Shown: positions 3 to 1,806 of the stretch, in pieces
Layout: each line of letters begins with the position of its first letter
How positions within the stretch are numbered: the stretch's first letter is position 1
Source: Bacteroidota bacterium
Lineage (GTDB): Bacteria; Bacteroidota; Bacteroidia; Bacteroidales; UBA7960
DNA length: 35,296 bases
NCBI GenBank assembly: GCA_007693555.1
Contig: REDJ01000138.1
Span: 1 to 35,296, forward strand
Reading direction: 5' to 3'
Notes under the pieces: generated by a model
Database searches by the model: none
What the model was told of the DNA's origin: nothing
What the model saw: the letters and a program-made list of their open reading frames with translations, nothing else
Program-made: the position numbers and the translations under genes

Positions 3-920
3 ATTGCACTTGCACAAGACTTAGAAGAACGTTTTGATAATAAACAACTTAAAGACCTTGAAGGATTAGGTGATTATAATTTAGGTAAATCTAAGGGCGA
101 ACAGAGATATCGCAAGTGGTGTTTAAATAATAAACTCTTTTTGAATCCAATAAACGATATTTCAATCGAATCAATAGCCGCAAATGACTGTATTTTATTG
201 CCAGCTATGACATTAGAATATGACCAAACTCCGGTTTATCAAACAATTTTTAATCAGATAAAACAGGAATTTGTTACTGGTAGATTTTTATTATATGATG
301 TCATAACACAATTACGGAGACATTATTCAGATAATGGAAACCTACAAATGGATACTCTTGATTATGCAACATATTCATTCAGCATTGAAAAAGTCAAAAT
401 TGCGTTTAGAATGTGTTACTCAATTCTTGACAAAATTGGTTATTTGCTCAATGATTACTTAGATTTAGGATATAAACCTGACCAAGTTTCTTTCAGAAAA
501 ATTTGGTATATCTACAAAAAGAATAAACCTGTTGGATTAAATACTAAAGTATCAAACACTAAAAATTGGGCTTTTAGAGGGCTTTTTTGGTTAAGTAAGG
601 ATTTATATGAAAAACATGATTTAGAATTTGTCTCTTCAATAGAACCTGACGCAAAAGATCTAGCCTTGATGAGAAATTTTATTGAGCATAAATCATTTAA
701 AACAGTTGAATTTGGAGAGCTGAGTTTTGTGGATAATGGATTAACCTTTTTGATTTCAAGAGCAGAGTTTGAATTGCGAACGATTAAATTGTTCAGACTT
801 GTAAGAGCCGCTATGATTTATTTGTCACTTGGTATAAATCAAGAGGAAAGCAAAAAAGCAAATGATAGACCTACAATGCCAGTTTATTTTATAGATTTAA
901 AAGATAACTCTAAATACTAA
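3..920 (+). CDS. LA2681-like HEPN domain protein, 5' end outside window (partial)
   Basis: The reading frame is open from the first complete codon (base 3) to the TAA at 918-920, so the gene begins before the window; the TTG at 141 is an internal codon, not a start. The visible part is about 305 residues. The segment KWCLNNKLFLNPINDI (about residues 37-52 of the visible part) followed by a helical, Arg/Tyr-rich domain resembles the LA2681-type HEPN family, whose members usually carry N-terminal TPR-like helices. HEPN domains are commonly RNases or RNA-binding modules in defence and stress systems, but no clear R-x4-6-H catalytic motif was confirmed here, so activity is not claimed. By eye the coding sequence is more AT-rich than era or tex, which suggests horizontal acquisition. 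It is followed by non-coding DNA and the tRNA array, with no operon partner visible. The family call is from memory of the motif. Confidence 0.6.
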   Translation: MALAQDLEERFDNKQLKDLEGLGDYNLGKSKGEQRYRKWCLNNKLFLNPINDISIESIAANDCILLPAMTLEYDQTPVYQTIFNQIKQEFVTGRFLLYDVITQLRRHYSDNGNLQMDTLDYATYSFSIEKVKIAFRMCYSILDKIGYLLNDYLDLGYKPDQVSFRKIWYIYKKNKPVGLNTKVSNTKNWAFRGLFWLSKDLYEKHDLEFVSSIEPDAKDLALMRNFIEHKSFKTVEFGELSFVDNGLTFLISRAEFELRTIKLFRLVRAAMIYLSLGINQEESKKANDRPTMPVYFIDLKDNSKY

Positions 921-1312: not shown

Positions 1313-1400
1313 AGTAGCGGGGACAGGATTATTCGAGCTATCGCTCTCATGAACTCGTCGCCAAATTGGCTCCTCGGTTCGAACCTGCGAACTTCTTAGA
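1313..1400 (-). repeat. tRNA-fMet 3'-end module 1 (type A cassette)
   Basis: Read on the minus strand, the module carries the T-stem halves GCAGGTTCGAA and AATCCTGTCCCCGC of the initiator tRNA at 1868-1939, but about 49 bp are inserted in the T-loop. The insert has the framework CGAACCGAG - hairpin - CGAGTTCATGAG - hairpin - CGAATAATCC. In type A the hairpins are GCCA/TGGC and GAGC/GCTC. The terminator at 1279-1312 follows it. Confidence 0.8.
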
Positions 1401-1416
1401 AGTCATAAAAAAACAA

Positions 1417-1445
1417 AACCCTTCAGCAAAAAATGCTGAAGGGTT
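1417..1445 (-). terminator. Intrinsic terminator of tRNA-derived module 2
   Basis: Perfect 11-bp stem AACCCTTCAGC / GCTGAAGGGTT with a 7-nt A-rich loop. On the minus strand it is followed by TTTTGTTTTTTT, so it should stop transcription leaving module 2. The same terminator occurs at 1692-1720. Confidence 0.75.
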
Positions 1446-1449
1446 TCTT

Positions 1450-1531
1450 AGTAGAGGGGACAGGATTATTCGGCCTCACGGCCTCATGAACTCGGCACTA
1501 TCGTGCCTCGGTTCGAACCTGCGACCTTCGG
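1450..1531 (-). repeat. tRNA-fMet 3'-end module 2 (type B cassette)
   Basis: Same framework as module 1, with different hairpins: GGCAC/GTGCC with loop GATA, and GGCC/GGCC with loop GTGA. The flanking tRNA similarity reaches into the variable loop (CCGAAGGTCGCAGG on the minus strand), which is further than in type A. The acceptor side reads CCCCTC instead of CCCCGC, so it could not form the normal acceptor stem. Confidence 0.8.
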
Positions 1532-1547
1532 TGGGGGCAAAAAAATA

Positions 1548-1578
1548 AAGCCCGTCAACCTTTCAGGCTGACGGGCTT
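1548..1578 (-). terminator. Intrinsic terminator of tRNA-derived module 3
   Basis: AAGCCCGTCA (1548-1557) pairs with TGACGGGCTT (1569-1578). On the minus strand the stem is followed by TATTTTTTT. It is homologous to the terminator of the intact tRNA gene (1823-1851) but has a different loop. Confidence 0.75.
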
Positions 1579-1587
1579 ATGTTACCT

Positions 1588-1675
1588 AGTAGCGGGGACA
1601 GGATTATTCGAGCTATCGCTCTCATGAACTCGTCGCCAAATTGGCTCCTCGGTTCGAACCTGCGAACTTCTTAGA
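1588..1675 (-). repeat. tRNA-fMet 3'-end module 3 (type A cassette)
   Basis: Second copy of the type A module, 275 bp from module 1 and seemingly identical to it over the whole cassette. Modules 1-2 (1313-1587) and 3-4 (1588-1862) form a tandem duplication. Confidence 0.8.
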
Positions 1676-1691
1676 AGTCATAAAAAAACAA

Positions 1692-1720
1692 AACCCTTCA
1701 GCAAAAAATGCTGAAGGGTT
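1692..1720 (-). terminator. Intrinsic terminator of tRNA-derived module 4
   Basis: Same 11-bp stem as at 1417-1445 with an A-rich 7-nt loop; the minus-strand downstream side is TTTTGTTTTTTT. Confidence 0.75.
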
Positions 1721-1724
1721 TCTT

Positions 1725-1806
1725 AGTAGAGGGGACAGGATTATTCGGCCTCACGGCCTCATGAACTCGGCACTATCGTGCCTCGGTTCGAACCTGCAAC
1801 CTTCGC
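1725..1806 (-). repeat. tRNA-fMet 3'-end module 4 (type B cassette)
   Basis: Second copy of the type B module, nearest to the intact tRNA gene. It differs from module 2 only near its outer end (GCAACC for GCGACC in the T-stem region, and GCTGGGGTC for GGTGGGGGC beyond). The hairpin cassette itself is unchanged. Confidence 0.8.

Follow-up and report, generated by a model that had tools for sequence, protein, structure and literature searches.

The ends of IS200/IS605 elements, and PATEs, consist of two hairpins on one strand and have no terminal inverted repeats, while Rickettsia palindromic elements (RPE) are small palindromes that settle where the host tolerates them. Tandem repeats with copies of a tRNA 3' end are found in the RtT RNA behind tyrT of E. 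coli, in which, to our knowledge, no T-loop module is present. A further group of repeats is represented by the GTAG- and CGTC-tagged REP repeats, whose CGTC class is described, in the part of the source that was available, as occurring in Bacteroidetes without a dedicated transposase (PMC3733652); the RPE are also named there.

The locus presented here lies in a window of 35,296 nt, the whole stretch of DNA that was analyzed, from a Bacteroidota bacterium. It carries a module of two hairpins which, with a probability that we put at roughly 0.65, is a REP-like miniature, non-autonomous mobile element that folds as single-stranded DNA and is moved in trans by a putative enzyme.

The tRNA-Met array of the window

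An intact tRNA-Met gene was identified whose T-loop, TTCGAATCC, corresponds to the unoccupied insertion site. On the same (minus) strand, 3' of this gene, the tRNA 3' end recurs four times, every copy bearing a module of 46-49 nt in its T-loop (TTCG^AATCC). Each unit runs from the tRNA variable loop and T-stem through the module and the tRNA 3' end to a terminator-like hairpin, and the module types follow the order B, A, B, A outward from the tRNA-Met gene. The features, all on the minus strand, are:

1867-1939, minus: intact tRNA-Met (CAT), detected by ARAGORN and by Rfam (RF00005, 66.2 bits)
1823-1851, minus: terminator-like hairpin between tRNA-Met and unit 1
1789-1803, minus: 5' half of the host site of unit 1, i.e., variable loop and T-stem AAGGTTGCAGGTTCG; equivalents lie upstream of every module
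1743-1788, minus: module type B, unit 1 (AACCGA...GAAT, then AA at 1741-1742)
1769-1782, minus: hairpin 1, type B, unit 1, GGCAC(GATA)GTGCC, between CGA and GAG; supported by covariation
1747-1758, minus: hairpin 2, type B, unit 1, GGCC(GTGA)GGCC, between ATGA and GAAT; supported by covariation
1722-1742, minus: 3' half of the host site of unit 1, AATCCTGTCCCCTCTACTAAG, the tRNA 3' end; equivalents lie downstream of every module
1690-1722, minus: terminator-like hairpin 3' of unit 1
1606-1654 (1604-1654 with AA), minus: module type A, unit 2
1632-1648, minus: hairpin 1, type A, unit 2, G-GA-GCCA(ATT)TGGC-GA-C, with an internal GA/GA step
1610-1621, minus: hairpin 2, type A, unit 2, GAGC(GATA)GCTC
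1548-1578, minus: terminator-like hairpin 3' of unit 2
1468-1513 (1466-1513 with AA), minus: module type B, unit 3, duplicate of 1743-1788
1415-1447, minus: terminator-like hairpin 3' of unit 3
1331-1379 (1329-1379 with AA), minus: module type A, unit 4, duplicate of 1606-1654
1275-1309, minus: terminator-like hairpin 3' of unit 4; two direct repeats come next, at 1246-1265

An earlier reading of this DNA, made from the sequence only, had described two cassette types with common words and different stems; indeed, CGAACCGAG, CGAGTTCATGAG and CGAATAATCC are present in all four units on the minus strand, and the A and B stems are exactly as that reading gave them. The A-B pair constitutes a 275-bp tandem duplication (99% identical over 248 nt), and the window by itself therefore offers just two independent module types. 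Occupied sites read CAGGTTCG[module]AATCCTG, versus CAGGTTCG joined directly to AATCCTG in the intact tRNA-Met. ViennaRNA folds both types as two hairpins, with RNA and DNA parameters alike, and returns a multibranch form under both parameter sets when the T-stem is included; a GAAC/GTTC pairing is also possible in the window, though it hinges on the TTC linker that here replaces the usual CTC. The multi-branched, tRNA-like fold closed by the T-stem that had been proposed is not a property of the family: the module is an insert in many contexts, including non-tRNA ones, and the T-stem thus belongs to the host sequence and not to the structure.

The direct repeats 3' of the last unit, CCGTCCCCC and ACGTCCCCC, also occur near tRNA-Met in L011 (G007) and L017 (G008), and adjoin an integrase N-terminus in L024 (G009); they are perhaps integrase arm sites. 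At the far end of the tRNA array is a gene for an LA2681-like HEPN protein (141-917, plus strand; PF18733, 6.4e-69), HEPN proteins often being RNases or toxins. A run of 14 G followed by 9 C at 2213-2235 is perhaps an assembly fault. A resemblance to the hammerhead core sequence CUGAUGAG...CGAAA was also considered; the corresponding stretch here is CTCATGAG...CGAA, in which the first G is a C, and the candidate was rejected, with no Rfam ribozyme in the window.

Architecture and distribution of the module

The module follows the scheme AAC-CGA[hairpin 1]GAG-CTC-NNGA[hairpin 2]GANN, then AA, and spans about 34-67 nt in intact copies (median 50 nt); the minimal form comprises 36 letters including AA, with two GCGAAGC hairpins (L199, L220). 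Since the first set of copies was picked by exact pattern, the invariance of AACCGAG, GYTCATGAG and CGAATAA within it is built in, while stems and loops were free to vary. Model searches over loci gave 127 and 30 matches, 145 of them unique, of which 139 begin with AACC, 113 end in AATAA and 19 in AGTAA.

A DNA search of 98 related genomes, including that of the window (G000), returned matches in 16, many of them just the tRNA end or terminators, and a fuzzy pattern located the module in nine of these 16 (G000, G002-G007, G009 and G016); the T-loop copies concerned adjoin, or derive from, tRNA-Met, Pro(TGG) and Pro(CGG). A pattern free of tRNA sequence, scanned across 84,980 genomes (one per species), returned 47 stretches, 44 of which are Bacteroidota by record title. 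The other three (Rhizobacter, a spirochaete and a Porticoccaceae MAG) are probably chance matches, and two of the 44, L082 and L090, may be so too; these five, together with eight repeats of loci already included, are the 13 stretches omitted from the model search over loci. A T-loop-like site was found by a fixed rule in 16 of the 47 stretches (L069 and L076 with degenerate T-stems), and tRNA-Leu D-loop sites were seen by eye in two, L047 and L055.

Among genomes chosen as carriers or their relatives, a second pattern matched 21 of 27, with no match for its reversed control, and a covariance model (R1) matched 38 of 44 chosen genomes. A phylum-wide survey matched three of 395 genomes, one being the window's own and the other two scoring 42.6 and 18.3 bits against the model; the element is therefore patchy, and one of these two matches may be due to chance. 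Exact-pattern scans of viral contigs gave no match. Carriage by phages was rejected as a candidate: a looser viral scan yielded three stretches that appear chance-like, two being identical and none having AACCGA shortly upstream.

Several related forms were observed. A shorter sister form, AACCGA[hairpin 1]GAGCTC with a short GNA hairpin and AA, is represented by L264-L283 in G098, G105 and G106, and G107 has forms related to it; in a wider set, found with a search pattern of high background, hairpin 1 is likewise kept and a short GNA hairpin comes next, e.g., GAGCTCAGCGAAGCTAA. Eight copies of a CACC subfamily (L247-L254, G011), in which a long AT-rich loop takes the place of hairpin 2, lie inside a larger repeat of ~110 bp, ACTTGCATGAGC...CATGCAAGTTC. 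In L028 (97-165, plus strand) a second palindrome, CCTGACTGCCGTCAGGCAGG, separates the module's GAG from its CTC, as though nested, and a similar palindrome is present in the tRNA-Leu T-loop of L055. In G112 (L083, L091) the module is part of a repeat that recurs at intervals of 720-1736 bp with small ORFs in between, much as in an integron cassette array; these ORFs are toxin- and lipoprotein-like by eye, and some start within the module (MFVAHELG...). A small ORF or peptide encoded by the module itself (ATGAGCACC...GAATAA) was dropped, the frame being open, as judged by eye, in only part of the copies.

Covariation of the stems and the probable folding strand

Both hairpins and the foot pair covary. 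In an anchored test, the arms were set by the flanking words alone in 53 distinct sequences, chance matches included. None of 2000 shuffles reached the observed Watson-Crick pairing at hairpin-1 positions 2, 4 and 5 or at hairpin-2 positions 2-4; four did so at each of hairpin-1 position 3 and hairpin-2 position 5, and 24 (hairpin 1) and 167 (hairpin 2) at the sixth positions. The signal at hairpin-1 position 2 stems partly from two subtypes, one with GA and the other with Watson-Crick pairs. A MAFFT alignment of 39 sequences, picked from 55 distinct matches with the CACC subfamily, near-duplicates and likely chance matches omitted, was paired in 84.2% of cells, versus 65.9% when shuffled and 19-40% with the partners slid by 1-3 columns; its covariation score was 0.324 versus 0.076 (0/500 shuffles), and 77 cells had changed on both sides, versus 28.7 when shuffled.

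Furthermore, a tree-based null was applied in an R-scape-style test of our own (G statistic after average product correction; null of 60 alignments simulated along a FastTree tree) to 94 distinct rows of the 145 matches, the remainder being unparsed or identical. The rows of this test derive from a structure-aware search and lean to pairing, a bias from which the anchored test is free. The top eight of 276 column pairs were all predicted stem pairs, none of which was reached by the null, while the best unpredicted pair had an E of 0.067 and no unpredicted pair was significant; four of the 12 predicted pairs were not significant in this test (E 0.3 to 1.3). The outer foot pair was ATGA..GAAT in 88 of 109 parsed copies, ACGA..GAGT in 17, ATGA..GAGT in two, and TTGA..GAAA and GCGA..GAGC in one each.

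The sequence-only reading had held that sequence shifts while pairing persists, and had called for an alignment with a covariation test; significant covarying pairs were found in both stems, with eight of the 12 predicted pairs significant in the tree-based test, and its suggestion of selection on structure, in RNA or in single-stranded DNA, is supported. The framework that it regarded as fixed also includes tandem GA/GA feet, and an outer pair of the feet itself covaries.

Covariation by itself cannot separate RNA from single-stranded DNA. The loops and mismatches were compared with a background of hairpins of at least 6 bp from the same loci. Modules were folded inward from the foot with Watson-Crick pairs, any 2x2 mismatch step being allowed. 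Cores closed fully in 58 of 83 distinct hairpins 1 and 41 of 91 hairpins 2, and this partial folding counts against the reading as a single-stranded-DNA element. Every one of the 42 internal 2x2 mismatches in the modules is GA/GA, versus 2 of 178 in a background drawn under a stricter stem rule than that for the modules. GNA accounts for 36 of 52 triloops (background 48/655, or 7.3%) and GNNA for 11 of 35 tetraloops (background 39/630). A GNRA-type tetraloop had been singled out previously, but GNRA makes up just 3 of the 35 tetraloops versus 19 of 630 in the background, an excess that is not significant (p = 0.10); the signature is GNA/GNNA, and the GATA and GTGA loops of the window are GNNA.

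Mini-hairpins of DNA, as characterized in the part of the source that was available, combine GNA or GNNA loops with at least two G-C pairs, GCGAAGC having a Tm of 78 C (PMC4686876). The GNA loops and GA/GA mismatches of the module fit compact single-stranded-DNA hairpins. The complementary strand would carry TNC loops and TC/TC mismatches, so the structure belongs to the AACCGA strand. Few natural elements known to us show selection on the shape of single-stranded DNA so openly, through stem covariation, mismatches that are exclusively GA/GA, and GNA loops.

The same data bear on a neutral explanation, according to which the complementarity of a quasi-palindrome's arms is maintained by template-switch correction in replication, a process that can yield paired changes without selection. 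The stems do vary even though copies per genome are few, as this would have it, yet correction should erase mismatches, whereas GA/GA steps are uniformly retained, most triloops are GNA, and feet and linker are fixed; we regard this origin as very unlikely.

Nearest to the earlier reading is the view that the array behind tRNA-Met is transcribed, each unit being a small hairpin RNA selected as RNA, which the covariation alone fits as well as it fits single-stranded DNA. Five terminator-like sites were found in 1200-2000, versus 1.5 expected, and all five are on the minus strand, one per unit and one after the tRNA. In addition, the T-loop insertions (27 matches in 20 loci, not all independent) are all in the tRNA sense, with none antisense, though this bias could stem from the target word, TTCG^AAT versus TTCG^AAC. 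The loops, however, are GNA and show no significant excess of GNRA, and the module is also found in tandem repeats, loops of palindromic repeats and other non-tRNA sites. Moreover, a scan restricted to sigma-70-like promoters found none in 1200-2000, and Rfam placed tRNA alone above its gathering score in the window, with no family for the modules, no match to RtT and, as the next-best match over 1270-1960, McaS at 25.9 bits against a gathering score of 42. Selection as RNA is accordingly held to be unlikely.

Insertion sites, proposed mobility and relation to known systems

In several genomes the module occupies the loop of an unrelated palindrome, the repeat CTTGAT...ATCAAG, with an exact frame in six of the 145 unique matches. 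Empty copies of this repeat were sought in eight genomes, in three of which the control was non-zero, so that some empty-repeat matches are due to chance. Removal of the module with one AA kept reproduces an empty repeat of the same genome exactly in three of the six (L224, L225 and L227, the frames of L224 and L227 being identical), and to within an edit distance of 1 in L063 and L078 and of 3 in L059; five further loci that were tried have a similar but inexact CTTGAT-like frame. Because emptied sites match empty repeats, the unit is AACC...GAAT, placed 5' of AA. It is a discrete unit, and occupied and empty sites differ by this unit alone.

T-loop targets comprise copies beside tRNA-Met, Pro(TGG), Pro(CGG) and Arg genes (Arg by eye) as well as an interrupted tRNA-Cys, and tandem head-to-tail units with common ends, ...CGAAT/AACCGAG..., occur in L073 and L076. 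The base 5' of the insert varies among the 145 matches (G in 98, A in 19, C in 17 and T in 11), and there is therefore no fixed target tetranucleotide. Outside T-loops, a preference for loops is weak: a stem of at least 5 bp surrounds the insertion in 26 of 99 contexts, versus 15.6 expected and a maximum, also 26, among 300 shuffles, while the mean stem score of 2.25 exceeds that of all 300 (maximum 2.21).

In G009, the sole tRNA-Pro(CGG) found is complete but for the module that interrupts its T-loop, as would be expected of an intron removed from the tRNA precursor. This genome is, however, a 90% complete draft with a Pro(TGG) tRNA that could read CCG, and elsewhere an intact gene accompanies the interrupted copy, as for tRNA-Met in the window and tRNA-Cys in G118. 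In the latter, the interrupted copy at one contig end and the intact copy near the end of another have a common joining sequence and are thus probably neighbours. With non-tRNA sites that need no splicing, an intron is scarcely credible.

No transposase attached to the module was found. PF01797 gave 31 matches in 12 of 16 genomes, 30 of which were taken as Y1-transposase loci; the whole module and the right-end pattern were each absent from all 30, and a RAYT/Y1 transposase was rejected as the mobilizer. Isolated fuzzy matches to the left end or the linker were present at 11 of these loci, and 13 of the 30 Y1 ORFs were parsed, several of which adjoin other hairpin repeats by eye. Likewise, no full-length parent was found among the transposases searched, and inspection by eye of the ORFs around 14 copies, two of them with under 350 nt, revealed no recurrent neighbour gene save in L048 and L067, which are one locus in two related genomes.

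Pieces of integrases lie near tRNA 3'-end copies in L024 (Arm-DNA-bind_5, 2.5e-06; no module) and L025 (Phage_int_SAM_5, 5.9e-14; module present). The module could accordingly be part of the attachment site of a tyrosine integrase, as a recombination site or accessory arm at a T-loop crossover; the direct repeats beside the last unit of the window and the L028 unit, which breaks off exactly after TTCG, point the same way. Against this, no neighbour gene recurs apart from the L048/L067 locus, and the same module is found in CTTGAT repeats and minisatellite-like DNA, making such a role quite unlikely. The tRNA 3'-end array itself may be the work of integrases, with the module as an addition.

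The reading of the module as a mobile element folding as single-stranded DNA draws its support for mobility from the comparison of occupied and empty sites. The AACCGA... strand would be exposed as single-stranded DNA, e.g., when on the lagging strand or when extruded as a cruciform, and its two compact hairpins with sheared G-A feet would be recognized by a trans-acting enzyme, most likely one of the nicking and rejoining (HUH) enzymes by which REP and IS200/IS605 ends are moved. After excision, the unit would join at AA, often within a hairpin loop. In the window, two insertions into displaced tRNA-Met 3'-end copies, presumably harmless there, would have been multiplied by tandem duplication. 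That A and B hairpins differ within one genome would be unusual if they were recent copies of a single master element and speaks against this reading, as do the negative enzyme search at the Y1 loci and the weak loop preference outside T-loops. More tentatively, the module may represent a so far undescribed class of structure-read single-stranded-DNA elements, in which the putative enzyme reads two DNA hairpins by their sheared G-A feet and GNA loops, not by sequence, and inserts them into other hairpin loops, above all those of tRNA T-arms; if so, stems could diverge freely with mobility kept.

Among those open-access papers listed as containing 11- and 12-letter core words of the module, none was, by title or start of the abstract, on a bacterial repeat like it, and a term search of the open-access literature returned no description of such an element. 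The word GAGCGAAGCGA occurs in open-access papers, one of them on repeat-based PCR in Mycobacterium intracellulare.

The module resembles the GTAG/CGTC REP repeats, as far as these are described in the available part of PMC3733652, in being a short palindromic hairpin repeat, scattered or clustered, with no dedicated transposase, as in the CGTC class. By the same partial account it differs from them in that its 145 unique matches are without GTAG or CGTC end tags, in having two hairpins in fixed order (median 50 nt) where a REP has one, a palindrome of 20-40 bp, and in its tandem GA/GA feet, its GNA loops and its target, the 5' side of an AA within a T-loop or another hairpin loop. Unlike RAYT-mobilized REPs (REPtrons), it is absent beside Y1 HUH transposase genes (0/30 loci).

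With IS200/IS605 ends and PATEs it shares two hairpins on one strand, the lack of terminal inverted repeats and the lack of a target duplication beyond the ambiguous AA, but it has no conserved left-flank tetranucleotide and is not at the 30 Y1 loci. It is also unlike a MITE of a DDE transposon, since its ends, AACCGAG and CGAATAA, are not inverted repeats and emptied sites need one AA. It can be likened, by description and not by sequence, to Rickettsia palindromic elements as a small palindrome at tolerated sites, and to RtT RNA in its tandem repeats 3' of a tRNA gene that carry tRNA 3'-end copies. The module accounts for tRNA-like arrays in Bacteroidota that ARAGORN leaves uncalled, and its defined ends, empty sites and strand make the question of what moves transposase-less REP-like repeats testable. 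Having two hairpins, loop targets and no REP tag, it is placed with the REP and miniature-element kind but is not assigned to any named family.
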